DNA of 40,329 nucleotides. Origin: a virus. The first letter of the stretch is position 1. Every line of letters begins with the position of its first letter. The DNA is taken from IMG/VR virus record IMGVR_UViG_3300049215_000026, positions 1 to 40,329 of that record. One strand, written 5' to 3'. The translations under genes and the position numbers were made by a program. Positions 3,865-32,031 of this stretch are shown piece after piece. The notes below the pieces were generated by a model. It worked only from the letters and a program-made list of their open reading frames with translations, was not told where the DNA came from and searched no databases.

Positions 3865-4367
3865 CCCACATGCTTCCCGCCGCATTCGCAGCGCGATACC
3901 TCGCAGAGCGGGAGAAGTTGCTCCAGGCATTCCCCGAACTGGCCGAGGACGAACTCGCCCTGCAGGACACCCTCGCCGGCATTACCAACGCCGAGGACGT
4001 GATTGCCGGCCTGATCCGTGACGCCCGCGAGGACACGGCAATGGCCGAGGCGGTCGAGAAGATGATCGACGAGATGTGCATGCGGCAGAACCGGCTGTCT
4101 GCCCGCGCCGCCCGTCGCAAGCAGGCCGCCCTGAACCTGATGGAAGCGTGCGACCTGCGCAAGATCGAGCAGCCGGACTTCACCGCATCGATCCGCGCGA
4201 CACAGCAGAAGGTCGAAATCACCGACGAGGCTGCATTGCCCGACAGCATGTTCCGCATCAAGCGCGAGCCGGACAAGACGGCCATCAAGGAGGCGCTGGG
4301 GAAAGGCCCCCTACCCGGCGCTCACATGAGTAACGGGGGCGCAACGCTCACTGTACGCACTCGCTAA
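3861..4367 (+). CDS. Siphovirus Gp157-family protein
   Basis: This 168-residue protein follows the Gp157 family closely. The pattern LAGITNAEDVIAGLIRDARE is followed by a long coiled-coil (MAEAVEKMIDEMCMRQNRLS), then DLRKIEQPDFTASIRATQQK, DEAALPDSMFRIKREPDKTA and SNGGATLTVRTR. In related phages it sits beside recombination and single-strand-binding genes, as here. Start at 3861 (ATGA overlap) is preferred to the ATG at 3831. Gp157 was first linked to phage resistance in Streptococcus thermophilus, but the molecular role is unclear. Confidence 0.85.
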   Translation: MTHMLPAAFAARYLAEREKLLQAFPELAEDELALQDTLAGITNAEDVIAGLIRDAREDTAMAEAVEKMIDEMCMRQNRLSARAARRKQAALNLMEACDLRKIEQPDFTASIRATQQKVEITDEAALPDSMFRIKREPDKTAIKEALGKGPLPGAHMSNGGATLTVRTR

Positions 4368-4379
4368 AGGACAACGCAA

Positions 4380-5060
4380 ATGCCACTGAACCTTTCCGTC
4401 AACGACGGCGACATCACCCCATACCTCAAGTACAACGCCAAGGCCGGCCGCTTCTACATCCGACCGCAGGGCTCGTCCGAGGACATCGAGATCGACCGTC
4501 CCCGCCTTGCCTTCGACATGGCGCGCATCAAGACCGGCTGGATTTTCTACCAGGAAGGCGCCGGCCCCGAGAAGGTGTGGGACCCCTCGCAGACCCAGCA
4601 GGCTCCCCGTCCCGCTGGTCCGCGCAAGTTCAAGCGCGGCTTCGAGGTCATGGTGTATGGCAACGATCCGCTCCCCGGTATCGGCATCATCGGGCTGCGT
4701 GAGTTCGGCAGTACGGCCACCAACGTCATCACGGCCATCATCGGCATGTACGCCGAGTACGAGAAGGGCGCCACCGCGCATCCGGGGAAGGTGCCGTTCT
4801 ATGCCTGTCAAGGCGTGAAGCCCATCCAGGGCGCCTATGGCACCAACTACGAGCCGATCTTTGTCCTCAAGGGCTGGATCGACCGGGCGAAGGTGCCGGC
4901 GTTCGACGCCGCCCCGTCAGACACCGACATCGGCTGGGAGGAAGCGCCCCCGATGGCCTCGGACCCGATCCCGGCCCGGGCCGCCCCGCACGCATCACAG
5001 TTTGCCGGCGGCGGTTCGTTCCCCGAAGACGACATCCCGTTCGCACCTGAGTGGCGATGA
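4380..5060 (+). CDS. single-stranded DNA-binding-like protein with DDIPF tail
   Basis: This 226-residue protein has a beta-rich core (residues about 1-175) and a Pro/Ala-rich linker. It ends GGGSFPEDDIPFAPEWR, and DDIPF is the classical SSB tail that recruits replication and repair partners. The core lacks obvious similarity to the bacterial OB-fold SSB but matches a common alphaproteobacterial phage type. It follows the Gp157 gene, the usual context. Likely role: coating phage single strands in replication or recombination. Confidence 0.7.
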   Translation: MPLNLSVNDGDITPYLKYNAKAGRFYIRPQGSSEDIEIDRPRLAFDMARIKTGWIFYQEGAGPEKVWDPSQTQQAPRPAGPRKFKRGFEVMVYGNDPLPGIGIIGLREFGSTATNVITAIIGMYAEYEKGATAHPGKVPFYACQGVKPIQGAYGTNYEPIFVLKGWIDRAKVPAFDAAPSDTDIGWEEAPPMASDPIPARAAPHASQFAGGGSFPEDDIPFAPEWR

Positions 5061-5386
5061 CCGCGCCCGTGAACCACAACCAGCCGCCGAGCGAGCAGTA
5101 CCGCTTGGCGGCCCTCGACTGGGTCGAGAAGGACAGCGCCGCCCGCATGCTGGAAGAGGCAAAGACCGCTATCCTGTCCCAGCACATGAAGAGCTACGGG
5201 GACATCCCCGCAGCTCACTCCGAGCGAGAGGTCAAAGCCTCTGACCAGTGGCACGACTACATCAGGAAGATGGTGTCGGCGAGGACCGCCGCGAACAAGG
5301 CGAAGGTCGAGATGGAGTATCGCAGGATGCTGTTCTCGGAATGGATGAGCGCGGACGCGACCAAGCGAGCGGAGATGCGGCTATGA
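5057..5386 (+). CDS. hypothetical helical early protein, 109 aa
   Basis: Start at 5057 (ATGA overlap with the SSB-like gene). The protein is charged and helical throughout (EQYRLAALDWVEKDSAARML, RTAANKAKVEMEYRRMLFSE), consistent with a coiled coil. Its position straight after the SSB-like gene suggests a replication or recombination accessory, but no family was recognised. Confidence 0.65.
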   Translation: MTAPVNHNQPPSEQYRLAALDWVEKDSAARMLEEAKTAILSQHMKSYGDIPAAHSEREVKASDQWHDYIRKMVSARTAANKAKVEMEYRRMLFSEWMSADATKRAEMRL

Positions 5387-5643
5387 CCACGCACACTTGC
5401 GGGGCAATCTTCGGGCCGGATGGGAGGCTGAAATGTATAGTGCTGGAGCCAGACGAAACAGATGCGTGGCGCCAGTATTTCCGCTGGCCGGCAATCGCTG
5501 ACAGCCTCATCGCCAGAACGAAGGAGGCCGGACACCGCTTTTCCCTCGTCACCGTCACCGAGCAGTCAGCCTCCCCCGCCCCTCCCCCTCCGGGGACACG
5601 GTTCGACGAGGAGGGAGTGCCCATTACGGAGACAGCCACATGA
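5383..5643 (+). CDS. hypothetical early protein, 86 aa
   Basis: Start at 5383 (ATGA overlap). The first 30 residues look beta-rich (THTCGAIFGPDGRLKCIVLE), followed by a helix and a Pro-rich tail (SASPAPPPPGTRFDEEG). The FGPDGRLKC unit faintly resembles the WGPDG units of the 71-residue protein encoded at 3649. No function assigned. Confidence 0.6.
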   Translation: MTTHTCGAIFGPDGRLKCIVLEPDETDAWRQYFRWPAIADSLIARTKEAGHRFSLVTVTEQSASPAPPPPGTRFDEEGVPITETAT

Positions 5644-5807
5644 CGACATCTGAACGCCCCGTCGACCTCCTTTGGAGGCTCCGCGACGTGGTCCGGAAAT
5701 ACGTGCGGGAGAAGGAGAACACTGCCGCCCCGGACTATGTCTACCGCGCCAACCTCGTCTCGCAGATGCGCGAACTGATCAAGAAGCTGTCCCATGACGC
5801 CGGCTGA
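5640..5807 (+). CDS. small early protein, 55 aa
   Basis: ATG at 5640 overlaps the upstream TGA (ATGA) and the frame runs to TGA at 5805-5807. The product starts MTTSERPVDLLWRLRDVVRK and is a charged, likely all-helical protein ending MRELIKKLSHDAG. The coupled start and codon use support it as a gene despite its length. Function unknown. Confidence 0.6.
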   Translation: MTTSERPVDLLWRLRDVVRKYVREKENTAAPDYVYRANLVSQMRELIKKLSHDAG

Positions 5808-6039
5808 ACGCAGGGCACTTCTGGAGCGGTATCACTCGGCGCTAGACCAGGCGCGAACGCGATGGGAGCTTGCCGCCGCAGATGAAAAGTTCTTTGCCAA
5901 GGAACGCAGCTCCACTCAAACCAGATATAAGCCCCCTGGCGATTGGTATGATGTCTACATCTGCCACCTAGATCGCGTTTTGGGCATCTCATCGCCCGCC
6001 GAATGCGACGCCCGCGTGAAGGAGATCATCGGTGGCTGA
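5794..6039 (+). CDS. hypothetical early protein, 81 aa
   Basis: The start at 5794 overlaps the preceding 55-residue gene by 14 nt. The protein is helical and charged (MTPAERRALLERYHSALDQA) with a Tyr-rich turn (TRYKPPGDWYDVYICHLD). Local sequence is slightly less GC-rich than its neighbours. No family recognised. Confidence 0.6.
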   Translation: MTPAERRALLERYHSALDQARTRWELAAADEKFFAKERSSTQTRYKPPGDWYDVYICHLDRVLGISSPAECDARVKEIIGG

Positions 6040-7673: not shown

Positions 7674-8043
7674 CGACACCCTCCTGACGCTGCGCGAGGC
7701 ATGCGAGACCCTGTTTCGCGGCCTCGTCAAGCCGGCTACGCTGAGGGCCGAGCACGCGAGGGGGAGGCTCGTCATCGAGCGGATCGGCCGCCGGGATTTC
7801 GTCACCCCTGCCGCAATTCAGGAGATGCGCAGGCTGTGCGAACGGAAAAAGGCCCCCGCCTCTGGCTCCGCAAGGCCCGCGTCCACAGAGACGGATGGGC
7901 GCGGCCTGCTACCTGGATCATCCGAGACGGGGCTCGCTCTGTCTCCACAGGATGCGCTGAGGGCGAGATTGCTCGCGCGCGCACGCTCCTCGCGGACTAC
8001 ATCACCCGACAATACAGCCCGGCTCGCAAAGAGCGGGACATAG
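7666..8043 (+). CDS. excisionase-like / AlpA-type DNA-binding protein
   Basis: Residues 8-56 ([20 protein letters not shown], then [20 protein letters not shown]) match the MerR-like winged HTH of excisionases that precede integrases in rhizobial prophages; the [12 protein letters not shown] block is characteristic. The C-terminal half is a Ser/Ala-rich, low-complexity tail. It overlaps the integrase start by about 200 nt in another frame, so the two are translationally linked. Expected role: directing excision at attP together with the integrase. Confidence 0.75.
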
Positions 8044-8933
8044 AGCGCATCCCGGTGACAGACGTGCTCGCCATCTACGACGCCGACTTCGGGGAACGGA
8101 CCACCGACCCGAAGAACTTCGTCAGCCGCATGCTCCGCCTCAACGAGTTCTTCGGCAAGAAGGTGCTGGCCGAGATCGACGGCGAGCTCTGCCGCGCCTA
8201 CGTCGCCGAGCGGGCGGCCGAGCGCAAGCCGAACCAGAGGCCGGGCGGCCCCGGTGGAGCGCGTCGCGATCTGGAAGTGCTGCGCGCCGCCATCAACCAC
8301 CATGCGCGGGAAGGCTACCATCGAGGCATGGTCAATGTGTGGCTGCCGCCGAAGGGCAGCGCGAGGGAGCGGTGGCTGACACGAGCGGAGGCGGCCCGTC
8401 TGATCTGGGCGTGCTGGCGAAATCCGTCGCAGCGGCATCTGGCGCGCTTTATCCTGATCGGACTCTACACCGGCACGCGGGCGGGCGCGATTGCAACGGC
8501 ATCGCCCACGCGGGCAGAAGGCCGGTCGTGGGTGGACCTCGATCGAGGCATCTTCTATCGGCTCGCAGAGGGCAGGCGGGCGACGCGCAAGGCGCAGCCG
8601 CCGGTTCCGCTACCTCGGAGGCTCCTCGCCCATCTGCGGCGCTGGCAACGGCTTGGCATAGCGCGGGAGCACTTCGTCGAGTGGCGGGGCAGGGCGGTCG
8701 TGTCGGTCAAGACGGGATTCGCCAGCGCGGTCGAGGCGGCCGGCATTGAGCACGCATCCCCGCACACCCTGCGGCACACGGCGGCAACCTGGCTCATGCA
8801 GGCGGGCACGCCGATCTGGGAGGCAGCGGGCTTCCTCGGGATGTCCGAGGAGACCTTGAGGAGAGTGTACGGCCACCATCATCCCGACTACATGCGGGCG
8901 GCGGTGGCGGCGATGGACAGGAGAGCGAGATGA
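7836..8933 (+). CDS. int: tyrosine-family site-specific integrase
   Basis: This 365-residue integrase starts at GTG 7836 (GGAG 12 nt upstream), matching the usual RGPRLWLRPAR-like N-terminus here read as [13 protein letters not shown]. The core-binding SAM-like domain is near residues 75-165. The catalytic domain shows the first Arg in [13 protein letters not shown], the HxxR box in [13 protein letters not shown], the following His in YGHHHPDY, and the nucleophile Tyr in HPDYMRAA. The in-frame residues upstream of 7836 are Arg/Pro-rich and look non-coding. The attP with a tRNA-Arg 3' end lies about 280 nt downstream. Confidence 0.92.
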
Positions 8934-11327: not shown

Positions 11328-12578
11328 TCAGGGGTTATGCTGTTCAGCCGATAGACGGCCGGCGACCATCTCGGGCGACAGCACAATCCGCCCGACCTCG
11401 CCAAACCGCTTGGAGTAGGTGATGACCTTGGCGCTCCGCCCCGCCAGCCAGCCGCCATTCGCCGCATAGGCATCCCGCGCCGCCAGCGTCTCGTGCCGCT
11501 CGATCTTCATCAGGTTCGTGGATTTCAGTTCATCCGTGTGCAGGTGCCCGATGTGGGCGTAGCTGTACCGGGTGCGTCCGTAGACGGAACGGAACTGCCC
11601 CGCAAACACGCTGTCGACGCTGTTGATCTTGCGCTTGTGGCCGTGGTGGTAAAACAGGGAGGTCTCGCCGTGCTCCAGCACATAGTAGGTGCTGGCGCTG
11701 CTATCGACCGTCAGGCGGGGCTCCTGATCGTAGAAGGCCGCGAACATCTCCCGCAGCCACGCCCCGCTGGCAGGGTCGTGGTTCGCATCACACATGACCA
11801 CATGGACGTGCTCGTGCTTCCCGAGCAGCATGGCGATAATCCGCCGCATCGTGCGGATGACCACCCGGATGATCTTCTGCAGGCGGGAGTCTGCGTCCAG
11901 AACGTTGGCGTTCGTCGGCGTGACGCTGACGTGGGAGTCGTGGTGAAGGAGGTCGCCCAGTTGCGCCAGCACTGCCCGAGAGGCTTTCGGGGCCATCTCG
12001 ATCGCGGCAGCAAACCAGTCCAAGAGGAGTTGCTCGGCAATCTTCAGGTCGTAGTCGCTGCCCGTTTCCTCCCGCCAACTCAGCATCCCGAAATGCAGGT
12101 CCGTGACGGTGAACTGGTTGAGCAGGTCGTCATTGCCGGGCGGCGCTATCGGCTCAGGGCTGGTGCGGGGGATTTCCTCCTTGAGCGCGTCGACCACGGC
12201 CCGCATGGCCGCGTCACGCTGCTCCTGGTCGACCTCGGCGCGCACCCAGTCCTGAATGACGCGCCCGTCCGCGTCACGGTTGACGGTGATCTTGCCTAGC
12301 CGATGCGTCGGCGGCATCTCGAACACGTCGCCGGGCTCGGGGCGCTGCGTGATGAACTGCCCGCCATCCGGGGTGGTCGACACCTTCGACACGACATAGC
12401 CCGGCATGGCTGGGGGTGTATCGAGCATCAGACCGCGTTCAGCTGCCACCTTCAGGCGGGATCGGTAGGTGGTTGGATTGAGCCCCAGCGCCTTGGCCGC
12501 AAGGTACAGACGGCCGTGTTCACGGAAGGCGGCTACCGCCTCCCGCATCGATTCCTCGGAAAGCGGCGGGGTTGGCAT
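11328..12578 (-). CDS. calcineurin-like metallophosphoesterase with N-terminal HTH
   Basis: This 416-residue protein has an N-terminal helix-turn-helix of the transposase/terminase-small style (FREHGRLYLAAKALGLNPTT). The phosphoesterase core follows: TVTDLHFGM gives the D-x-H metal pair, QLGDLLHHD the G-D, VVMCDANHDPASG the usual GNHD (here AND for GN), SLFYHHGHK and YAHIGHLHTDE the later His ligands. This architecture is frequent in rhizobial and other phages and often mislabelled oxidoreductase. A nuclease or nucleotide phosphatase activity acting on DNA is plausible by analogy to Mre11. Confidence 0.8.
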   Translation of the reverse strand: MPTPPLSEESMREAVAAFREHGRLYLAAKALGLNPTTYRSRLKVAAERGLMLDTPPAMPGYVVSKVSTTPDGGQFITQRPEPGDVFEMPPTHRLGKITVNRDADGRVIQDWVRAEVDQEQRDAAMRAVVDALKEEIPRTSPEPIAPPGNDDLLNQFTVTDLHFGMLSWREETGSDYDLKIAEQLLLDWFAAAIEMAPKASRAVLAQLGDLLHHDSHVSVTPTNANVLDADSRLQKIIRVVIRTMRRIIAMLLGKHEHVHVVMCDANHDPASGAWLREMFAAFYDQEPRLTVDSSASTYYVLEHGETSLFYHHGHKRKINSVDSVFAGQFRSVYGRTRYSYAHIGHLHTDELKSTNLMKIERHETLAARDAYAANGGWLAGRSAKVITYSKRFGEVGRIVLSPEMVAGRLSAEQHNP

Positions 12579-13608: not shown

Positions 13609-13731
13609 CTATAGCCCGATGTGCTTTTGAACGAGGTATCGGATGACGGCATATGCAGCGACAACCGCCACCGCCGCAAAGCAGCACAGAACCGTCGCGC
13701 CAGCCCAAGCAACCACGATTGCCGGCGTCAT
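13609..13731 (-). CDS. single-TM mini-protein, 40 aa
   Basis: ATG at 13731, with GAGCGGG upstream, through TAG at 13611-13609. The product MTPAIVVAWAGATVLCCFAA VAVVAAYAVIRYLVQKHIGL is one long transmembrane helix and a short basic tail. It lies at the end of the run of membrane and secreted proteins that begins with the ExbB-like gene, so it may belong to that complex. An accessory TM subunit is inference from position. Confidence 0.5.
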   Translation of the reverse strand: MTPAIVVAWAGATVLCCFAAVAVVAAYAVIRYLVQKHIGL

Positions 13732-13736
13732 CCCGC

Positions 13737-14081
13737 TCACCCTTTGATCAGCAGCATGTGGTGCCCGAGCAATGCCGGCGCGGCCGGGAGGCTGTTCGGG
13801 ACAGGCTTGGGAGTTGCCGGTGGCGCGGCCTGCCAGTGCTCTCCGGTCAGCGCCAGACACAGTGTGCCCTCATGCGGAACCAGCAGCGTCCACGAGCCCG
13901 TGGGCGATACGGTGATGACCACCGTCTGCCCGCCGTCGACCGCAGCCCCGAAGGCCGGAACCTCGGAATACTGCTCCCGCAGGTTCTTCAGCACCGACTC
14001 CGAGGGGCCGCAGTTGTCGCCCGCAGCGACCGCGTAGTCCGCGCCAGAGAGCATCAGCAGAAGGGCTAGTGCGCGTGTCAT
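13737..14081 (-). CDS. secreted/periplasmic protein, 114 aa
   Basis: A signal peptide is visible: MTRALALLLMLSGADYAVAA, with a likely cut after AVAA. The mature part has two Cys (DNCGPSESVL and EGTLCLALTG) that could form a disulfide. It is beta-rich (QTVVITVSPTGSWTLLVPHE) and has a Pro/Ala-rich tail. It overlaps the upstream gene by ATGA and lies two genes after the ExbD-like gene. A periplasmic partner of the membrane complex is a reasonable inference; no family recognised. Confidence 0.65.
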   Translation of the reverse strand: MTRALALLLMLSGADYAVAAGDNCGPSESVLKNLREQYSEVPAFGAAVDGGQTVVITVSPTGSWTLLVPHEGTLCLALTGEHWQAAPPATPKPVPNSLPAAPALLGHHMLLIKG

Positions 14082-14515
14082 TGCGGCGGTCCTTTCGGTG
14101 CTTGGTCGGGGACATCCCCGAAGGAAAAGCCCATGTCGTCGTCGTGGAGCAGACCCGCACGGCCATGCTTGGCCTGCCCGCGCATCGCGTGCCCCTTCTT
14201 CAGGGCTTGCTGCGCCTTCAGGAACTCATCCCGCTGGCCGGGGTCGGTGATGTTCAGATCGTAACTGCGGATGTCGCCCTCGGAATAGCGCACCGTCAGG
14301 ATGAAGCGGCTGTCGGCTACCGGAGCCACGGCCAGCAGTCGCCATTGCTCTGCGGCCAGACGCCCATCGGGCATGGCGGGAGTGCCGGCGGCATGCTGCA
14401 TGATGAGGCCGGCGGTAAGGGCGCAGAGCGCCCATATGATGATAGCCGCTCGCACGTCGGCGAATACCGATGCAACGGCGGCAACGGCAGTGCAGAGCAG
14501 GACCGGCTCAATCAC
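14078..14515 (-). CDS. membrane protein with soluble domain, 145 aa
   Basis: GTG at 14515 overlaps the TGA of the ExbD-like gene (GTGA). Two hydrophobic stretches open the protein (VLLCTAVAAVASVFA and AAIIIWALCALTAGLIM). A beta-rich domain follows (WRLLAVAPVADSRFILTVRY) and then a basic, His/Asp-containing tail. The two helices with a short Asp-Val-Arg turn fit a hairpin. Directly coupled to the ExbD-like gene, it is probably a third component of the same assembly. Unrecognised family. Confidence 0.6.
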   Translation of the reverse strand: MIEPVLLCTAVAAVASVFADVRAAIIIWALCALTAGLIMQHAAGTPAMPDGRLAAEQWRLLAVAPVADSRFILTVRYSEGDIRSYDLNITDPGQRDEFLKAQQALKKGHAMRGQAKHGRAGLLHDDDMGFSFGDVPDQAPKGPPQ

Positions 14516-15108
14516 GGTGTCGCCCCCAGCATTTCGTTGGCGAACAAGTCTTCCGTGGTGTCCGTCGAAACCACGTCGCCGCTGGCGTCGACATCGAACC
14601 TGAAGGCTGTGCGCTCCTCGCGATTGTCGGTAAGCGTTAGCTCTCGGCTCGTGACGGTGCGCGCATGTTCGGACACCGCCGTCAAGATCACCCGCACATG
14701 CACAGGCAAGCCGACAAGGTGGTATGCCTGAACATTGACGGTATAGGTGCCGGGAAGGGTCTGGCGAATGAAATCGACTTCCTCACGATGTGCGACAAGC
14801 ACCGTATTGCCGGCGTCGTCGATCACGGTGTCGGAACTGATCCCGAGGTCGTCACGATCAAGGCTGACAAAGTCGGCCTGCCGCCTGCGGAAGAACACGA
14901 CAGAGCCGGTCGGCATTCTGACCCACAGGTCTATGTCGCTGACGCTTCCGTCGTCCCACGTCATGGTCACGATGTAGCGGGACGCGGACTCGATGTTGGC
15001 TTTCGACGCTTCGTCGCTGATCTTCATAAGAGCCGCGAAGATGAGCAGCAGCAGGACGAGGACCAGCAGCGTCATTACGTCGAGGAAGGGAATGGCGAAG
15101 CGACGCAT
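14512..15108 (-). CDS. ExbD/TolR-like protein with a DUF2135/YfaP-like periplasmic beta domain
   Basis: The N-terminus MRRFAIPFLDVMTLLVLVLL continues as one TM helix carrying Asp10 in the setting PFLDVM. This corresponds to the ExbD/TolR motif (TPLVDVML), whose Asp carries protons. A short helical linker (residues about 30-45) leads to a beta domain with DGSVSDIDLWVRMPTG, FVSLDRDDLG and LPGTYTVNVQAY. That pattern is seen in DUF2135/YfaP-like sandwiches, not in the usual ExbD or OmpA-like domains. It overlaps the ExbB-like gene by TGATG. Role inferred: the ion-conducting, periplasm-reaching subunit of a small stator-like complex. Confidence 0.7.
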   Translation of the reverse strand: MRRFAIPFLDVMTLLVLVLLLLIFAALMKISDEASKANIESASRYIVTMTWDDGSVSDIDLWVRMPTGSVVFFRRRQADFVSLDRDDLGISSDTVIDDAGNTVLVAHREEVDFIRQTLPGTYTVNVQAYHLVGLPVHVRVILTAVSEHARTVTSRELTLTDNREERTAFRFDVDASGDVVSTDTTEDLFANEMLGATP

Positions 15109-15536
15109 CAGGCCGCCCGGCCTCCCGCAAACATCAACTGAAACCGCAGCAGGACGGCAGCCGATACCCCGAGCAGAGTCGGTTGGAAGCTCGTGCCAGC
15201 CCCGATCAGGATGGGGCCGATCAACTGCTTGAAGTCAGAGCCGCCGCTGACGCTGACGTGCGCAAGGGCCGACAGGACAAGGATGATACCCGCAACCGTG
15301 CCGATCAGCGCCACGCCCGGCAGCAGGTCGGCTATCTCCTGCACGACCGCCTCGCTGTGCTTGCCGAAGCTGAGGAAGCCGGCGGCCACGAAGTAGACGG
15401 CGAGGATGACGAACGACAGTTTCGACGCGTCTGTCACCCACAGGAACGTCAGGTATCCGTAATAGGACGCCGCCGCGAAGACGCCGAGCAGCGCCAGGTT
15501 AAGCAGCAGCAGGAGTGCCGACTTGCGTGCGGTCAT
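15108..15536 (-). CDS. miniature ExbB/TolQ/MotA-like membrane protein
   Basis: At 142 residues it is much shorter than ExbB or TolQ (about 230-245). Hydrophobic segments lie near residues 7-30, 41-57, 72-94 and 106-137. The third reads LLPGVALIGTVAGIILVLSA, matching the ExbB/TolQ TM2 motif LGLLGTVxGI. The fourth reads GPILIGAGTSFQPTLLGVSA, matching the TM3 motif (ALxTTxxGLxxAIP). Thr80 and Thr120 fall where the family has pore Thr residues. Its partner, an ExbD-like gene, follows directly. The large cytoplasmic loop of ExbB is almost absent. The call rests on motifs plus the gene pair. Confidence 0.7.
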   Translation of the reverse strand: MTARKSALLLLLNLALLGVFAAASYYGYLTFLWVTDASKLSFVILAVYFVAAGFLSFGKHSEAVVQEIADLLPGVALIGTVAGIILVLSALAHVSVSGGSDFKQLIGPILIGAGTSFQPTLLGVSAAVLLRFQLMFAGGRAA

Positions 15537-15739
15537 GGGGTGGCCTCGTAGGCGTCGGCGTGGACAACTCGCCCCTGATCAAGAACAAGCGAACCCTCCT
15601 TACAGAGGACCGCGTTCATTGCGCAGGACTCATCCCACCCACGCGAGTGCGGGCCTTCATCACCATAAAGGTCTTTCGCGGTCTTGCCGCAGGCACTGCA
15701 AACCCAAATGGCGCCATCGGGAGCAAAGCGGTCGGGCAT
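15533..15739 (-). CDS. small CxxC protein, 68 aa, first gene of the ExbBD-like operon
   Basis: AAGGAG lies upstream of the ATG at 15739. The sequence WVCSACGKTAKDLYGDEG, then SRGWDESCAMNAVLC, contains four Cys and a His, a probable zinc ribbon. Its stop overlaps the ExbB-like start (ATGA). Small Cys-x-x-Cys proteins like this are common in phages. It heads the leftward operon but may be functionally unrelated. Confidence 0.65.
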   Translation of the reverse strand: MPDRFAPDGAIWVCSACGKTAKDLYGDEGPHSRGWDESCAMNAVLCKEGSLVLDQGRVVHADAYEATP

Positions 15740-15929: not shown

Positions 15930-16175
15930 CTAGTGGTGCCAGGTGAATATCCCGATCCAGTCGGCGATCTTCGCAAGGCCAGCGCCCACGGCGGCCGAAG
16001 CCATCGCGATGCCGACCAGCGCCTTCCAGCTACCCTCCGCCCGCAACATGGTGTCACGGACGATGGTCAGTTTCTGATCGATGGATTTGATTGTTTCATC
16101 CATGGAGTTCTGCCGGGCTTCCATGGCGTCAAGCCGTGCCCCGAACTCGCCTAGCTCGCGCTCAGCGGAAACCAT
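15930..16175 (-). CDS. XhlA-like coiled-coil/TM lysis-associated protein, 81 aa
   Basis: AAGGAG upstream fixes the ATG at 16175; the frame further upstream is Pro/Arg-rich and non-coding. Residues 1-45 are a coiled coil (GEFGARLDAMEARQNSMDET, then IKSIDQKLTIVRDTML), followed by one TM helix (ALVGIAMASAAVGAGLAKIA) and a short DWIGIFTWHH tail. This layout is that of XhlA-type hemolysin/holin-associated proteins. With the adjacent membrane proteins and endolysin it completes a lysis block. Confidence 0.6.
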   Translation of the reverse strand: MVSAERELGEFGARLDAMEARQNSMDETIKSIDQKLTIVRDTMLRAEGSWKALVGIAMASAAVGAGLAKIADWIGIFTWHH

Positions 16176-16287
16176 AGCCGTCTCCTTTCTCACATGGGTT
16201 GGGGAGACTCGCGACGCCGAACGCGCTAGGATTGCCTGCCGCGTGCGCGGTGGCGGGGTGCCGGGAGGATCGGCCGGCCTTTCGGCG

Positions 16288-16328
16288 TGCAAGTCTCGGC
16301 TTGCAGTTCACGGGATTGCCGTCCCGTG
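16288..16328 (-). other. two hairpins in the gap between lysis genes
   Basis: TGCAAG/CTTGCA (16288-16293, 16300-16305) and CACGGGA/TCCCGTG (16309-16315, 16322-16328) are perfect stems with 6-nt loops, placed side by side. They sit 32 nt downstream of the stop of the 110-residue membrane protein, in a 184-nt gap with no convincing ORF. No T-run follows. They may shape the mRNA between lysis genes. Confidence 0.4.
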
Positions 16329-16359
16329 GCCCCCGCCGATTGCGGAGGACTTGCAGGAG

Positions 16360-16692
16360 TTAACTGCGGATCGTGGTCAGGAAGTAGAACCCTATGACAA
16401 CCCACGAGACGTGCGTGAGGTCGGACGACAGCGCGTCCGTGCTGCCCCAGCCGAGCACCTTGTCCCACAGGAACAGCTTGGCGTAGTAGATGGCGACAGG
16501 CGCCGCGAACAGCGCCCGCACGATCGCGTTGATGGGCGAGTGCCCCTCGGCCTCCTGCACGCCAGCCTGCGCGTTGACGCGGTTGTTCTCCACGTCGGCG
16601 GCGGTCTGGGCCTGCGCCGTCCGCATACCGAAGAAGGCTTTGATCAGCCCTATGATGGGCGAGAGAAGGCCGAAGAGGGCAAGCATCCTCAC
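16360..16692 (-). CDS. membrane protein, holin candidate, 110 aa
   Basis: Hydrophobic segments at residues 3-22 (MLALFGLLSPIIGLIKAFFG), about 57-75 (IVRALFAAPVAIYYAKLFLW) and 93-107 (WVVIGFYFLTTI) give a three-TM protein, with a polar middle (RTAQAQTAADVENNRVNAQA). It resembles the 3-TM holins of gene transfer agents and alphaproteobacterial phages. It overlaps the next lysis gene by ATGA. Confidence 0.6.
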   Translation of the reverse strand: MRMLALFGLLSPIIGLIKAFFGMRTAQAQTAADVENNRVNAQAGVQEAEGHSPINAIVRALFAAPVAIYYAKLFLWDKVLGWGSTDALSSDLTHVSWVVIGFYFLTTIRS

Positions 16693-16958
16693 ACCTTCGG
16701 GTTATCGCCGTAGAGGCGCTTGTTCACGTCGTTGAAGATGATGATGAGCACACCCACGCCGGCAAGGACTGCCGAGGCGGTCTTGGCGTCGATGAACTTG
16801 GAGAGGTCCAGAGCGCCGACGTAGTTCAGGATTTCGCCGATGACGGGAACTGCCGTCACGATGGCGCCCTTGATGTAGGTGCGGAGGCCGACCGGGCCGA
16901 AGGCCAGCAGCAGACAGCCGGCGCCGACAACGGCGATGAAGATGCCGAGGATTTCCAT
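16689..16958 (-). CDS. small membrane protein, holin/antiholin candidate, 89 aa
   Basis: AAGGAAG precedes the ATG at 16958. Two clear hydrophobic segments, IFIAVVGAGCLLLAFGPVG near the start and ASAVLAGVGVLIIIFND near the end, plus a semi-hydrophobic middle segment (IVTAVPVIGEILNYVGAL). Located between the endolysin and the other membrane protein, it is a second holin or antiholin candidate. Class is uncertain. Confidence 0.55.
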   Translation of the reverse strand: MEILGIFIAVVGAGCLLLAFGPVGLRTYIKGAIVTAVPVIGEILNYVGALDLSKFIDAKTASAVLAGVGVLIIIFNDVNKRLYGDNPKV

Positions 16959-17039
16959 GCGAAGGACTTCCTTTCAGGGGTGCGTGGTGCTACATGTTGC
17001 ATTAGGTGGCGTTCGAAAGCTGCTTGCGATTAACTCGGT

Positions 17040-17156
17040 GGGGCAGGAGCCGACCTGCCCCGATGTCCCCTCCGGAGGGGGCTGTACCGTCCTACGGGTC
17101 CGGCCCGAGCGAAAGCGACAGCCAAGAGCAAAGCTCTACTGGCCGTCAAAGCCAGT
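17040..17156 (-). ncRNA. cluster of four perfect hairpins in a 218-nt untranslated gap
   Basis: Between the endolysin stop and the holin-like gene lie GGGGCAGG/CCTGCCCC (17040-17047, 17054-17061), the palindrome CCCCTCCGGAGGGG (17067-17080), AGAGC/GCTCT (17125-17129, 17133-17137) and ACTGGC/GCCAGT (17138-17143, 17151-17156). Imperfect pairs lie between. No ORF with a start site fills the gap. Such density suggests a structured RNA or a complex terminator/attenuator; no T-run follows the strong stem. Confidence 0.5.
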
Positions 17157-17176
17157 GAACGCCGCCAAGCACTCTC

Positions 17177-18097
17177 TCAGGTCTTGTTCGCGTCAGTCGG
17201 AACCGGGGCGATCGGAGTAGCCGGCGGCGGGGTATTCGCGGCCTGCGGCACGACGGGTTTCGAGACAGGCTTGGCCGGGTGAATGGCGCTATCGATCTCG
17301 GCGCCGAGCTTCTTGTCGAAGTGCTTGATCAGCAGATACGCCGCCACGATGACGGCGATGACAATGACGATGGTCCACATGATGGATGCTCCTGACAGGT
17401 AGGTTGCTGCAGCTGCCGCCCCGCCGGTCACGATGACCGGGGAGGCATGAAAAAGGCCGCTCGTGGCGGCCTTGGGGGGAGCCTCGGGAACGCCGGGATC
17501 GTCCGGCTGTCGAGGCGGTAAGGTGGGAGGCTTCGGCGGGAGGACGGCGGCGGGCTCGGCGGGTATCTGCGCTATGGCAGCCGCCTCGATCGCCCGCTGG
17601 AACGTCTTGGCATAGCCGGCGATGGTCGCGGCCTTATCCGTGCCGTTGATGATCTTCCGCGCACCCTCGTAGTCGCAGAGGATGCCCTTGATGTAGTCGC
17701 CGAGCTTCTTGCCGGTGAACCAGCCGTCGATCATGCCGTCGAACAGAACCACCGTGGCGATCGGCAATTCCATCGCGCGGTCGGGCGACTTGACCAGATC
17801 GACGCCGACGATCTTGCCGGCCTTGGCGTAGTTGGCTTCCCAGGTGAGCTGCACGAAGCCGCGCCCGTAGTACGGGGCATAGCGGGCTGATTTGCCGCCA
17901 TACTCGGCGATCGGCTGCATGGTGCGGGCAGTCTCGTGATAGGTGGTCGCCAGCATGTAGGCGAGCCACCGCTGGTCTGAGAGCTTGCGCCGCTCCCACT
18001 CGTCGAGGATGGCCCCCATACCGTCGACTTGGCCCTGATTGAGACTGCCGCCGAACAGGGCCGATCGGACGGACAGGAAGAATGCGCCTCGGTTCAT
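17177..18097 (-). CDS. GH19-family endolysin with C-terminal membrane anchor
   Basis: GAGGAG precedes the ATG at 18097. Residues about 5-180 form a GH19 (chitinase/lysozyme) domain: LATTYHETARTMQPIAEYGG holds the catalytic Glu, and YYGRGFVQLTWEANYAKAG is the substrate-cleft signature. A long Pro/Ala linker leads to a hydrophobic helix (SIMWTIVIVIAVIVAAYLLI) and a Lys/Pro tail. A C-terminal TM segment is not the usual endolysin plan, where N-terminal SAR or no anchor is typical. The start lies 7 nt from the tailspike stop. Confidence 0.85.
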   Translation of the reverse strand: MNRGAFFLSVRSALFGGSLNQGQVDGMGAILDEWERRKLSDQRWLAYMLATTYHETARTMQPIAEYGGKSARYAPYYGRGFVQLTWEANYAKAGKIVGVDLVKSPDRAMELPIATVVLFDGMIDGWFTGKKLGDYIKGILCDYEGARKIINGTDKAATIAGYAKTFQRAIEAAAIAQIPAEPAAVLPPKPPTLPPRQPDDPGVPEAPPKAATSGLFHASPVIVTGGAAAAATYLSGASIMWTIVIVIAVIVAAYLLIKHFDKKLGAEIDSAIHPAKPVSKPVVPQAANTPPPATPIAPVPTDANKT

Positions 18098-18104
18098 GTG
18101 CTCC

Positions 18105-19019
18105 TCAGAAGTTGTTCGCGGTGACAAGGCCGGTCACGCCGGCCATGCTGATGTTGGTGGTGCTGTTCAGCCGGTTGGCCACGATCCCGACGCCTTGCAG
18201 CCAGCCGGCGCCGCCCGCATTCCAGATGCCGGTCGGGGTGTTGGTGCCGATCTGGTTGCCGACGATGACGACGTTCCCGAAGGTAGCCCCGGCGTTCTTG
18301 TTGAACGTCACGGCCGCTGTCATGCTGTGCTCGATCGAGTTGCCGACGATAATCAGGTCGCTCGTCGCCACCCCGGCAGCAAGCTGCATCAGGTAGCCGT
18401 AGGTCCAGTGGATGATCTTGTTGTTCTCGATGCGGAGGCCGCCGCTGCTCACCTGACTGATGCCGACGCTGCCGGTCGCGCCGTTGCCGCTGATGAGGTT
18501 GCCGTAGATCGTGCTGTCGCCGCTGTCGGGCGTCACCGGGTTGGCGACGTAGATGCCGGTCGCACCGGAGAGCCCTGCAGCGCTGAAATTGCAGTCGTGC
18601 AGGGTCCAGTTGGCGGCGTTGCCCATGCGGGCGGCGATGGCGCAATGCTGGAAGCCTACGTCGGCGATTTCCGACTTGAGGTTGGTGGCGGCAGGAGTGA
18701 CGTTGATGCCGATCTGGCCGGCGTTGAGGCAGTTTACCGTCAGATGCGCGATGAGCACCTGATCGGCGGTCTGCACGTCGATGCCGGTATTGCCGCCGGC
18801 CACCGCAATCGTGGTGCAGCCCGAGCCGGAGCCCTCGAACGCCATGCCCTGCGGGATGACAATGGGGGCGCTGATGAGGGACGTACCGGGCGGCGCCTTG
18901 ACGGACAGATTGCTGGCGACGGCAGCGGCGACGGTTGCCGCCCATGCGGCGGTGTCATCGGTCACGCCGTCGAATGCGGCGCCGTAGTCGACCGGGTTTA
19001 CGGAGACAGGGGTTGGCAT
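18105..19019 (-). CDS. tailspike-like right-handed beta-helix protein
   Basis: ATG at 19019 has AGGGCGAG upstream. The N-terminus VNPVDYGAAFDGVTDDTAAW is the pectate-lyase-3/tailspike opening, in which a short strand and DGxTDDTxA precede the helix. The body repeats beta-helix coils (GNLISGNGATGSVGISQV, GLRIENNKIIHWTYGYLMQL, NSIEHSMTAAVTFNKNAG, GVGIVANRLNSTTNISMAGV). It has 304 residues and no separate receptor-binding tail. The likely role is binding or depolymerising host surface polysaccharide. It stands at the downstream end of the virion genes. Confidence 0.8.
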   Translation of the reverse strand: MPTPVSVNPVDYGAAFDGVTDDTAAWAATVAAAVASNLSVKAPPGTSLISAPIVIPQGMAFEGSGSGCTTIAVAGGNTGIDVQTADQVLIAHLTVNCLNAGQIGINVTPAATNLKSEIADVGFQHCAIAARMGNAANWTLHDCNFSAAGLSGATGIYVANPVTPDSGDSTIYGNLISGNGATGSVGISQVSSGGLRIENNKIIHWTYGYLMQLAAGVATSDLIIVGNSIEHSMTAAVTFNKNAGATFGNVVIVGNQIGTNTPTGIWNAGGAGWLQGVGIVANRLNSTTNISMAGVTGLVTANNF

Positions 19020-21594: not shown

Positions 21595-22992
21595 TCAGGT
21601 TCCGCCGATATACTCGGTGATGATGACGATGCCGCCGGCACCAGCGCCGCCAGTGACAGCGCCGCCCGCACCAGACGAGCGACCGCCGCCACCGCCACCG
21701 CCATAGTTGTTGCCGGCGCCACCCGCCGACTGTGCCGCGCCCTGCACAGCGCCAAAGCCAAGCAGCGAATTGCCGCCGTTGCCAGACACCGGGAACTTGA
21801 GCGTGTTTACCGCGCCGCCCGTGTTCAACCCGCCGGGCATGCCGTCCTGGCCGGGGACAGAGAAGTCACCCGTACCAGCAACGCCGCCCGCTCCGCCCGA
21901 TCCACTGGAATTGGCTGCCGCCCCACCGCCCGCCGAGCCGCCCTTGCCAATGCAGAGCGTGCCCACCGACGTGTCGCCACCGGCCCCACCGTCATGGTTG
22001 CCCGACGTGCCCGCCGTGCCACCCGCGCCAATCGTGACCGTCTGCGAGGAACCGATCGTGGCCGCGCTGGCGACCAGTCTTGAATAGCCTCCACCGCCGC
22101 CACCGCCACCCGCGCCATACTGGCCCGAAGACGAGTTGGCCGAGCCGCCGCCACCTCCGCCACCGCCCACGCACTCAATGACGCAATAGAGCATCCCGGT
22201 CGTCGGCGTGTAGGTGCCGCCAGCCACGAACACTTGCTTCGTCACCGAGACGATGGCGCTTGTCCACGTCGGGTTGGAACTGCTGCCCTTGGTCTGCAAG
22301 AACTTGCCCGACGTGCCCGCTGCCAGCCGCGTATTGGTCGACGCGCCGTTGTAGTAGATGATGTCGCCCTGCGTGGTCGTCGGGGCCAGCGCATTGAAGG
22401 CCGCGCTCGCCGTCGTCTGCCCGCTGCCGCCGTTGGCGATGGGCAGCGTTCCCGTCACGCCCGCCGACAGGCTCACCTGCCCCCACGAGGGATCGGTGCC
22501 GTTGGTGATCAGCACCTGGTTGGCGGTGCCGACTGCCAGCCGCGAATAGGTCGTGGCCGAGCGGGTGACGAAATCGCCCCGCGTCGTCAGCAGGTCGGGG
22601 ATGGCGGCGAACTTGACCGCCGTCTCGCTCGGGTCGGACTTGATGAAGGCCCGCGAGGTCTGCGGGACGACGACACCCGTGCCTCCGCTGTATTTCGCGG
22701 TGACGGTATGCGCACCTGACGTGGCGTTCTCGACAATGTAGAAGCCGCCGGCCGATGCGGGATATACAACATTCACGTCACCGGAGAGAGTGCCGGACAG
22801 ATTGTGGATCGGCGCTTGCGTCTCGGACGTGGTAATCGTATGGTCACTGCTGGACAGCGTGATAGCAACTTGCGCGCCGAAGCAGGCGTCGATCGGCGTA
22901 AACGTGCCGCTCGTGACCTCGACCCCCCACGTTGAGGGAAAATCACCCTGCGCCGGCAGCAACAAAGATTTCTGTGTTGAATTCGTCGACAT
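21595..22992 (-). CDS. glycine-rich tail fibre/adhesin protein, 465 aa
   Basis: The N-terminal part (about 1-110) carries MSTNSTQKSLLLPAQGDFPS with a WGVEV block. Collar-like repeats (SGTLPIANGGSGQTTASAAF) follow, then the segment AGTSGKFLQTKGSSSNPTWT. The C-terminal 200 residues are a glycine-rich domain (GGGGGGGGSANSSSG and similar) closing with GGIVIITEYIGGT, the type found at fibre tips. The last third is highly similar to the protein encoded at 32031-32966. GGAGA lies upstream of the ATG. Confidence 0.75.
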   Translation of the reverse strand: MSTNSTQKSLLLPAQGDFPSTWGVEVTSGTFTPIDACFGAQVAITLSSSDHTITTSETQAPIHNLSGTLSGDVNVVYPASAGGFYIVENATSGAHTVTAKYSGGTGVVVPQTSRAFIKSDPSETAVKFAAIPDLLTTRGDFVTRSATTYSRLAVGTANQVLITNGTDPSWGQVSLSAGVTGTLPIANGGSGQTTASAAFNALAPTTTQGDIIYYNGASTNTRLAAGTSGKFLQTKGSSSNPTWTSAIVSVTKQVFVAGGTYTPTTGMLYCVIECVGGGGGGGGSANSSSGQYGAGGGGGGGGYSRLVASAATIGSSQTVTIGAGGTAGTSGNHDGGAGGDTSVGTLCIGKGGSAGGGAAANSSGSGGAGGVAGTGDFSVPGQDGMPGGLNTGGAVNTLKFPVSGNGGNSLLGFGAVQGAAQSAGGAGNNYGGGGGGGRSSGAGGAVTGGAGAGGIVIITEYIGGT

Positions 22993-30562: not shown

Positions 30563-31732
30563 TCAGAGCTTTGGTCCCGGCAGGCGCATCATGCGCTGCG
30601 CGATCTGCTTGCGGGCGGACTGGACCCAGCGGCCCAGGTTGCGATGCCCCTCGTTCATGTCGCCGCCACCGACCGCCATCACGTCCTCGGGCGGGACGAC
30701 CATCTCGCCGCCGGCCGCGATGATGTCGACCGGATCGCCGCTATTGCCGTCAGCCGAACCACCCGATGCCAGTGGGGCCGGGTTCTTGCCGAACACGATC
30801 GGAGGCCGGTGATGCTGGCCCATGACCCGCATCTTCATCCGGTGCGGGTTGAGCATTTCGTTGATGATCTTCGCCCCGCCGTGGGTATTGCCCTGCCCGA
30901 CGCCTGAAACCACGTCGGCGGGGATGACGAAGGAGTCCTTCGGGACGGTCAGCGGAAGCTGGTCGGTGCGGCCGGGGACGGCCGAGTTGATCATGCCGAC
31001 ATGCACCGGCTTGGGCATCTGCGGCCTTGGAACATGCGCGATGCCGCCCTTGGCGAAGTTTCCGGCAGTCGGGTCCAGCCCCTTCAGCGTGGCCGCCTTC
31101 TTCTGCAGAAGCATTTGCATCGCCGGGTCCATCAGGCCGTTGTCGCGGGATGACCTAGCGGCGTCAGCGTTCTCAAAATGCGGCGCACCGGGAGCGGCAA
31201 GAGCCGCCGCACCCAGTCCGGCAGGCGGGGGCATGGTCGGCTGATCGGTCATGCGCGCAACCGGGTTCGCCGGCATCCACGCCTGCGCGTCCTTCGGCAG
31301 GAGGCCAATCCCGGCATTGATCCACGCCGTACTGGCTTTGTTCTCCGGCAGGCCGGTCGCAATGTCGTCGCTCCACGCCCGGTTCATGGCGGTGGCATGG
31401 TTGACGTTCGGGTCGTATTCCTTGTTGGCGGAAACGAACGGCTTGTCCTGCGGGACCAGCCGATCTGGCATCTGTAGATCAGAGATGGAAATGCCGGGAC
31501 GCGGGCGCGGCAGAGGCACGTCGGGCGACTGCAGGGCCTTCACCGTCTCGGCGGTCATGGTGCCGGTCGGGTCGATGCCATGCGCCTTCTGGAACGCCAT
31601 GATGGCGGCGTGGGTCTTGTCGCCGGCTACCCCGTCGATCTTGTCGTCGTAGAAGCCCTTCTTGGCGAGTTCCGACTGGATGTAGCGGTTGAAGGACGCG
31701 CCGCCAGCCTTATATGCGCTCAAACCAGCCAT
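30563..31732 (-). CDS. virion-associated protein with N-terminal peptidoglycan-binding domain
   Basis: This 389-residue protein (ATG 31732 by TGATG overlap) has a PG_binding_1 fold at residues 13-70: YIQSELAKKGFYDDKIDGVA GDKTHAAIMAFQKAHGIDPT GTMTAETVKAL. A Pro-rich linker and a C-terminal part with PLTVPKDSFVIPADVVSGVG and DIIAAGGEMVVPPEDVMAVG follow, the latter resembling phage virion proteins with repeated G-G-x-V-PP turns. No catalytic domain is visible. It probably helps the ejection apparatus engage the cell wall. Confidence 0.75.
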   Translation of the reverse strand: MAGLSAYKAGGASFNRYIQSELAKKGFYDDKIDGVAGDKTHAAIMAFQKAHGIDPTGTMTAETVKALQSPDVPLPRPRPGISISDLQMPDRLVPQDKPFVSANKEYDPNVNHATAMNRAWSDDIATGLPENKASTAWINAGIGLLPKDAQAWMPANPVARMTDQPTMPPPAGLGAAALAAPGAPHFENADAARSSRDNGLMDPAMQMLLQKKAATLKGLDPTAGNFAKGGIAHVPRPQMPKPVHVGMINSAVPGRTDQLPLTVPKDSFVIPADVVSGVGQGNTHGGAKIINEMLNPHRMKMRVMGQHHRPPIVFGKNPAPLASGGSADGNSGDPVDIIAAGGEMVVPPEDVMAVGGGDMNEGHRNLGRWVQSARKQIAQRMMRLPGPKL

Positions 31733-32031
31733 CACTTCACCTTCCGCTCGCGCCGCTTGCCGGCAGGCTCAGGCTCGGCAGCCACAGCCCTCGGAGCCGG
31801 CTTTGCCACCGTGCCAACCACCTCCCACTTCGAAATCCCCGGCACCAGGCCCTCCACCCGCTTGGCCCGCACCCAGTCCTCGTAGCGATAGTCATGGAAC
31901 TTGGAGAACGGTCGCGACTGGTTCAGCGTCGCGATCACCGTGTCCTTGTCCTCCACCGCCTGAACCTCGGCCCGCGTCACTTCGGACGGCAGGCCAACCG
32001 TCAGGACTTCCCCCACTTCAGGAATGCGCAT
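31732..32031 (-). CDS. small virion-region protein, 99 aa
   Basis: Starts MRIPEVGEVLTVGLPSEVTR and has a beta-barrel-like alternation, then SRPFSKFHDYRYEDWVRAKR and a Lys/Pro-rich tail (PEPAGKRRERKVK). Short phage proteins with the RPFSKxHxYRxxD pattern sit between fibre and injection genes in related genomes. Function unknown. Both ends overlap neighbours by one base (TGATG). Confidence 0.6.
   Translation of the reverse strand: MRIPEVGEVLTVGLPSEVTRAEVQAVEDKDTVIATLNQSRPFSKFHDYRYEDWVRAKRVEGLVPGISKWEVVGTVAKPAPRAVAAEPEPAGKRRERKVK

Follow-up and report, generated by a model that had tools for sequence, protein, structure and literature searches.

A candidate family of ion-driven 5:2-type motors encoded by a three-gene operon of phages and Alphaproteobacteria

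Flagella, nutrient import, the upkeep of the outer membrane and Zorya defence all depend on proton-driven motors of the 5:2 type. The present analysis deals with the IMG/VR virus record IMGVR_UViG_3300049215_000026 (positions 1 to 40,329, i.e., the whole 40,329-base stretch, hereafter the window), in which three consecutive genes of the minus strand encode an ExbB/MotA-like A subunit, an ExbD-like B subunit and a protein with two transmembrane segments. The first two very probably form an ion-driven motor of 5:2-type architecture. As a whole, the unit is best read as a proton-driven module of the moron type that would act on the host envelope, with exclusion of rival phages as its likeliest purpose, a reading to which a probability of about 40% is given. 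In its most extended form, namely a new family of ion-driven 5:2-type motors with a DUF2135-like B subunit and a two-transmembrane subunit, widespread in Alphaproteobacteria and taken over on two or more occasions by phages, whose miniature form would serve rotary-motor superinfection exclusion (together with a periplasmic protease in 16-3-like phages), the proposal is doubtful. The genes and residues concerned are located as follows:

15108..15536, minus strand: ExbB/MotA-like motor A subunit, 142 amino acids (aa), matching Pfam MotA_ExbB at the cut-off
15297-15299 and 15177-15179, minus strand: codons of the ExbB motifs, i.e., Thr80 of GTVAG and Thr120, respectively
14512..15108, minus strand: ExbD-like motor B subunit, 198 aa, with the Asp10 codon at 15079-15081 and a 1-nt overlap with the ExbB stop
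14078..14515, minus strand: two-transmembrane third subunit, 145 aa, with a small C-terminal domain

The conserved unit is composed of ExbB, ExbD and the two-transmembrane gene, i.e., three genes and not the six that the initial annotation had grouped together, four of them as dedicated partners of the ExbB/ExbD pair. All six open reading frames (ORFs) were indeed found on the minus strand, at the same positions and with overlaps of a few bases, and the overlaps of 1 to 4 bases linking the ExbB, ExbD, two-transmembrane and signal-peptide genes follow the pattern of a translationally coupled operon. Of these partners, though, only the two-transmembrane protein recurs; the idea of a conserved six-gene module was dropped as the genes for the Cys, signal-peptide and one-transmembrane proteins were found beside the module in the window phage only, across 84 loci. 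A tblastn search retrieved ExbD homologues, all of them labelled hypothetical or unnamed, in 26 Rhizobium/Sinorhizobium phage records, with ExbB upstream and the two-transmembrane protein downstream every time in the loci read; tblastn among phages with the window ExbB returned no match. Single-sequence scans of viral contigs with either window protein yielded no relatives and only alignment-based scans succeeded, contributing 32 further IMG/VR loci, some of which duplicate each other or named phages. The pair thus co-occurs well beyond the window, and the initial annotation withstands the refuting condition that it had set itself: ExbB adjoins ExbD in 38/38 phage loci, with a two-transmembrane homologue downstream in 36 of them (E<0.01), and over the 84 phage and chromosomal loci ExbB is present in 83 and the two-transmembrane gene in 76 (E<0.01), the latter figure being a lower bound since several of the loci without a match are cut by contig ends or give weak matches. 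Such linkage of ExbB with ExbD does not result from chance. Between close pairs, the ratio of nonsynonymous to synonymous substitution rates (dN/dS) ranges from 0.05 to 0.27 for all three genes, i.e., they are under purifying selection.

The assignment of the 142-aa protein to the ExbB/TolQ-like proteins was borne out by Pfam as well as by matches to solved structures. The window protein reaches Pfam MotA_ExbB (PF01618) with E=7.8e-5 and 22.9 bits, which is exactly the curated cut-off of 22.9; all six members of an alignment of phage ExbBs match this family, and chromosomal relatives score 31-32 bits. Searched against the PDB, a profile of these six phage ExbBs matched ZorA (5.5e-5), MotA (1.2e-4) and TolQ/ExbB (0.02-0.1). 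The window ExbB displays four hydrophobic segments in an N-in/C-in pattern. Of the two threonines initially put forward as hallmarks, Thr120 is conserved in 42/42 phage and 54/54 chromosomal sequences, while Thr80 is not, being T, N or A in phages; in the alignment, the adjacent G79 is invariant and half of the phage copies have N at position 80. From the loop between the first two transmembrane segments to the GxxG[TN] motif, 40 phage copies count 41-66 residues (median 41) and 47 chromosomal copies 57-154 residues (median 98); the phage ExbB has therefore lost most of the cytoplasmic loop.

In the ExbD-like protein, the proposed intramembrane Asp10 holds, being invariant in 28/28 aligned sequences and in 43/43 phage or prophage sequences; an Asp occupies this position in 44/55 chromosomal copies. 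An AlphaFold2 model (single chain, like all models used here; mean predicted local distance difference test, pLDDT, of 83.7) places Asp10 on a helix at residues 5-36, followed by an all-beta domain. This DUF2135/PPC-like periplasmic domain covers residues about 45-183. That a DUF2135/YfaP-like beta domain stands in place of the usual ExbD, TolR or OmpA domain, as the initial annotation had it, agrees with profile matches and with the all-beta model, the window protein itself remaining below the Pfam cut-off. Scores against DUF2135 (PF09906) are below cut-off (0.066 for a relative), with relatives also weakly PPC-like; conversely, the ExbD family profile recovers DUF2135 proteins at 1e-4 to 1e-6 per genome, catching C-terminal domains of large proteins, and the two examined both carry PF09906 DUF2135. 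No Pfam match to the ExbD/TolR family PF02472 was obtained, and a PDB fold search with the model had neither ExbD nor TolR among the 50 matches listed, none of which reached E 0.001. The most believable of them is the beta-sandwich TTHA1873 (7wwo; probability 0.98, TM-scores 0.34/0.41); a pore-toxin beta fold, which provided the top matches by E-value, was set aside given low probabilities and TM-scores near 0.15. Among 28 phage sequences, the invariant residues are D10, W51, D58, D60, L83, R85, D86, D87, G89, E110 and E165, of which the acidic D58, D60, D86, D87, E110 and E165 suggest a bound metal ion. As for the two-transmembrane protein, its AlphaFold2 model has a mean pLDDT of 70.9 and gave no usable match in a fold search of the PDB; by a positive-inside reading, its small C-terminal domain is probably periplasmic.

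Compared with described systems, and by the tests run on these sequences, the module is neither Zorya, nor Tol-Pal, nor TonB-ExbBD. With ExbB-ExbD (TonB) and TolQ-TolR (Tol-Pal), it shares an A subunit of the PF01618 family, adjacent A and B genes, and a B subunit with one transmembrane helix bearing an Asp; it differs from them by (i) a B subunit with the all-beta DUF2135/PPC-like domain instead of a PF02472 domain, (ii) an ExbB with four transmembrane segments and almost no cytoplasmic domain, and (iii) a dedicated two-transmembrane third protein. Inspection of the loci read disclosed no TolA, TolB, Pal or TonB beside the module. MotA-MotB likewise have four transmembrane segments in the A subunit and a transmembrane Asp in the B subunit, but the module lacks both their torque-generating cytoplasmic domain and their peptidoglycan-binding OmpA domain. 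The likeness to Zorya ZorA-ZorB lies in a minimal 5:2-type motor and in the profile search, where ZorA came out closest among the solved A subunits; PADLOC models of ZorA also match, weakly (5.8e-4), and a Zorya-like defence, where the motor would sense an incoming phage via the envelope and trigger a cytoplasmic effector, could be envisaged on this basis. ZorA scores lie far below the NCBIfam cut-offs, though (13.5 bits against 100); the phage ExbB has no ZorA-like cytoplasmic tail, the ExbD has no OmpA domain as in ZorB, no effector ZorC, ZorD or ZorE is linked in the neighbouring genes read, and PADLOC returned no match for the ExbD, two-transmembrane or signal-peptide protein. The parallel with Zorya initially drawn thus breaks down both for the accessory genes and for the domain of ExbD, and a defence of this kind is highly improbable.

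A swap of the usual periplasmic domain of the B subunit behind an Asp-bearing transmembrane helix has a precedent in the vWA “transpore helix” proteins, which take the place of the B subunit in TolQ-like motors of Proteobacteria and Verrucomicrobia (PMC12204202, 2025), the domain being vWA there and DUF2135-like here; varied DUF appendages are the subject of another paper (PMC12505986). In the parts consulted of these two sources, no mention was found of DUF2135 B subunits, phage copies or a three-gene operon, nor, in that of PMC12204202, of a two-transmembrane partner. Within the open-licence papers searched, no description of this operon, of phage ExbB/ExbD or of DUF2135-ExbB pairs was found. 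Proteins of the DUF2135/YfaP type (PF09906), i.e., the TPR-containing proteins whose C-terminal DUF2135 domain is caught by the ExbD profile, are large and lack the helix with the transmembrane Asp, unlike the ExbD-like subunit.

In the window, which codes for a tyrosine-type integrase (7701-8933), virion structural and DNA-ejection proteins as well as a lysis cassette that includes a GH19 endolysin, and which consequently corresponds to a temperate phage, the module is bordered by the following features:

15930..18127, minus strand: upstream lysis cassette, phrog_181 endolysin E=3.7e-36, GH19 E=1.5e-8
17177-18127, 16689-16958, 16360-16692 and 15930-16292, minus strand: parts of this cassette, namely the GH19 endolysin, two holin-like small membrane proteins and an XhlA-like protein
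15533..15739, minus strand: small Cys-rich, zinc-ribbon-like protein, 68 aa, with a weak Pfam zinc-ribbon match (E=0.043)
13737..14081, minus strand: signal-peptide protein, 114 aa, with an ATGA overlap with the stop of the third subunit, phrog_25396 E=1e-10 (function unknown)
13609..13731, minus strand: one-transmembrane protein, about 40 aa from an internal ATG; the full ORF of 83 aa is 13609-13860
11328..12578, minus strand: downstream DNA repair exonuclease/metallophosphoesterase, phrog_704 E=2.4e-119

The unit is found in several unrelated phage types and its surroundings change from one to the other. The window and AP-16-3 share the order lysis cassette, module, DNA repair exonuclease, the latter gene following the module in 23 loci; in marine T4-like contigs the module adjoins the DNA polymerase, in Pootjesviridae it stands beside gyrase and a late sigma factor, and in RHph_I1_18 beside tRNAs. 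Along with three genes being kept together, this change of place makes the unit look like a self-contained accessory module. A role in lysis, where a controlled ion leak or a periplasmic pull would time or complete lysis, e.g., by outer-membrane disruption, is in line with what is seen in the window and in 16-3-like phages, where the module comes after endolysin and holin genes of the same orientation. Against it, DNA-replication genes surround the module in marine T4-like contigs and in the virulent phages of Rhizobium, the chromosomal copies occur without lysis genes, and several relatives also possess Rz/Rz1-like spanins, by which a replacement of spanins was rejected; overall, a lysis module is improbable. 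From lysis-adjacent to replication genes, the range of contexts is such that position fixes no expression class. In 16-3-like phages, the module copies sit just past the endolysin, at the place where the late region is said to end and a “silent” region to start (PMC10460002); the boundary is uncertain because the published coordinate, 16,823, mismatches the record, which has the endolysin at 21,736.

In 26 loci, all from 16-3-like phages or prophages, a trypsin-like serine protease (PF13365) is encoded directly upstream of ExbB. This tightly linked protease, noted in L005, L006, L019-L038, L041-L044 and L113, is secreted or anchored, with His/Asp/Ser motifs that look intact as read in L005. 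A related protease is encoded about 3 kb downstream of the module in L002 and L008, and none was found at the chromosomal operons or in the window.

The module had been regarded as phage-encoded, and the idea of a phage-only system was abandoned once the same operon was found on the chromosomes of many Alphaproteobacteria. In the alphaproteobacterial class of genome G006, 53 of 337 genomes gave a match, and in about 47 (about 14%) this match was strong, compared with 16 strong matches in 398 genomes sampled from the Pseudomonadota (centre genome included), 1/287 in a Patescibacteria sample and 1 strong match out of 345 in the phylum of genome G002. The operon is also present on one contig each of a Patescibacteria and a Deltaproteobacteria metagenome-assembled genome (MAG). 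On the Patescibacteria contig (L039), it lies among the typical housekeeping genes ObgE, TypA and NadA, a surprising presence should these cells have no outer membrane, and mis-binning is possible. In Azospirillum brasilense Sp7, a chromid holds ExbD twice, with the full operon at the copy examined. Upstream of the chromosomal operon in L072, the gene at 3999-5948 resembles by eye a podophage head-tail connector or portal, a hint of a prophage remnant.

Among the Rhizobiaceae, only 5 of 298 genomes gave strong matches, of which at least three, and perhaps all but one, look prophage-like, the one with the linked protease (L113) among them; as chromosomes of this family mostly have no copy, the phage would add a function rather than replace one. 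The scarcity of the module in these hosts also leaves the Tol or Ton motor as the target for an alternative in which the phage subunits, small enough to co-assemble, would mix into host TolQR or ExbBD motors and poison them, thereby blocking Tol- or Ton-dependent phages. A single subunit would suffice as poison, yet all three genes are under purifying selection; moreover, the invariant, catalytic-looking residues favour an active machine and the operon is stable on chromosomes, so that interference of this sort ranks as the least probable of the alternatives weighed.

Chromosomal neighbourhoods are diverse and include era/recO, sfsA/radC, purN, SufBCDS, pyrroloquinoline quinone (PQQ)-dehydrogenase with cytochrome c, and formate dehydrogenase/SelD. 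In L057-L060, L068, L079-L087 and L091, the operon is near a PQQ-dependent dehydrogenase, cytochrome c, a YNCE-like beta-propeller and an ABC-2 transporter, in surroundings resembling PQQ/alcohol-oxidation gene clusters; a general PQQ/lanthanide role was not adopted, many lineages having other neighbours. A DUF3108-like lipoprotein follows the operon as a fourth gene in one chromosomal group of seven loci (L061-L064, L067, L077 and L078). Ordinary, non-defence settings of this kind, the genes for PQQ-dehydrogenase, cytochrome c and ABC transport near several operons and the lipoprotein following seven of them speak for an auxiliary metabolic or envelope function, where the motor would power the transport or envelope upkeep served by the bacterial operon, to the benefit of the lysogen or infected cell; in the same vein, marine T4-like phages, which are rich in auxiliary genes, carry the module next to the DNA polymerase. 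In phages, however, the module has neither a TonB-dependent receptor nor TonB nor an ABC transporter linked to it, and the neighbours vary by chromosomal lineage such that the link with PQQ may be lineage history. An auxiliary function is, on balance, somewhat unlikely as the explanation.

With respect to origin, a host-derived, accessory (moron) nature of the module is likely. A maximum-likelihood tree built from 73 ExbDs requires two label changes for the phage rows, and well-supported branches force both: 16-3-like temperate phages stand beside one chromosomal clade, and the other half holds the window together with the marine T4-like contigs and the virulent Rhizobium phages. The window ExbD forms a long branch (2.06), which makes its exact place unsure.

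In this family of motors, ExbB-like subunits form a pentamer around the transmembrane helices of an ExbD-like dimer. By analogy with this family arrangement, an ExbB pentamer would surround the helices of two ExbD copies, Asp10 and a ring of conserved Thr would carry ions under the proton motive force, and the dimer would turn or change shape, so that the DUF2135-like domains and the periplasmic part of the two-transmembrane protein could act on a periplasmic or outer-membrane target. The phage gene set would have been taken up from bacteria at least twice, then trimmed, and its benefit for the phage would consist in an energised modification of the envelope of the infected or lysogenic host, in which the linked trypsin-like protease may take part in 16-3-like phages. 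That the unit is kept in unrelated phages at shifting positions while being mostly absent from host chromosomes points to an envelope function of the accessory kind. Among the possible roles, superinfection exclusion, which the initial annotation had proposed alongside defence and lysis timing, is tentatively placed first, closely followed by an auxiliary envelope or transport role.

Several observations weigh against a proton-driven moron used for exclusion. The ExbD tree is unrooted and, as such, bacteria-to-phage transfer is the simpler reading only and not a proven one. The chromosomal copies displayed no defence-island context, and their PQQ/cytochrome, era/recO, sfsA and purN neighbours suggest a housekeeping envelope role. 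Besides, 11 chromosomal ExbDs have Val or Ala at the position of Asp10, nine of them in a Bradyrhizobium-like set with Val (L098, L100-L105, L109 and L110), the others being L085 and L086 (Ala or Val), and ion use may thus not be universal in the family. These same ExbDs have an Asp about four residues upstream, which could reflect a shifted ion site or a motor no longer using ions.

A motor branch common to phages and chromosomes, with a periplasmic domain and a third subunit particular to it, would extend the list of 5:2 motors, and the phage ExbB offers a natural minimal A subunit, with little cytoplasmic structure, for studying how ion flow is turned into movement. Function is directly testable since miniature copies exist in the temperate phage 16-3 (p038/p040/p042, with the protease as p036) and in the tractable A. 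brasilense Sp7; the Rhizobium phage RHph_N3_19 is another carrier of the module.

Regarding the rest of the window, the sixth ORF probably starts at the internal ATG at 13731, giving a protein of about 40 aa with one transmembrane segment, because the GTG of the 83-aa version sits deep within the preceding gene. A search for sigma-70 promoters found none and terminators stayed below the chance level, results of little weight for a phage of Alphaproteobacteria. Finally, a second endolysin-similar protein is encoded at 30563-31735, among virion genes and far from the lysis cassette, and is possibly a virion-associated lysin.

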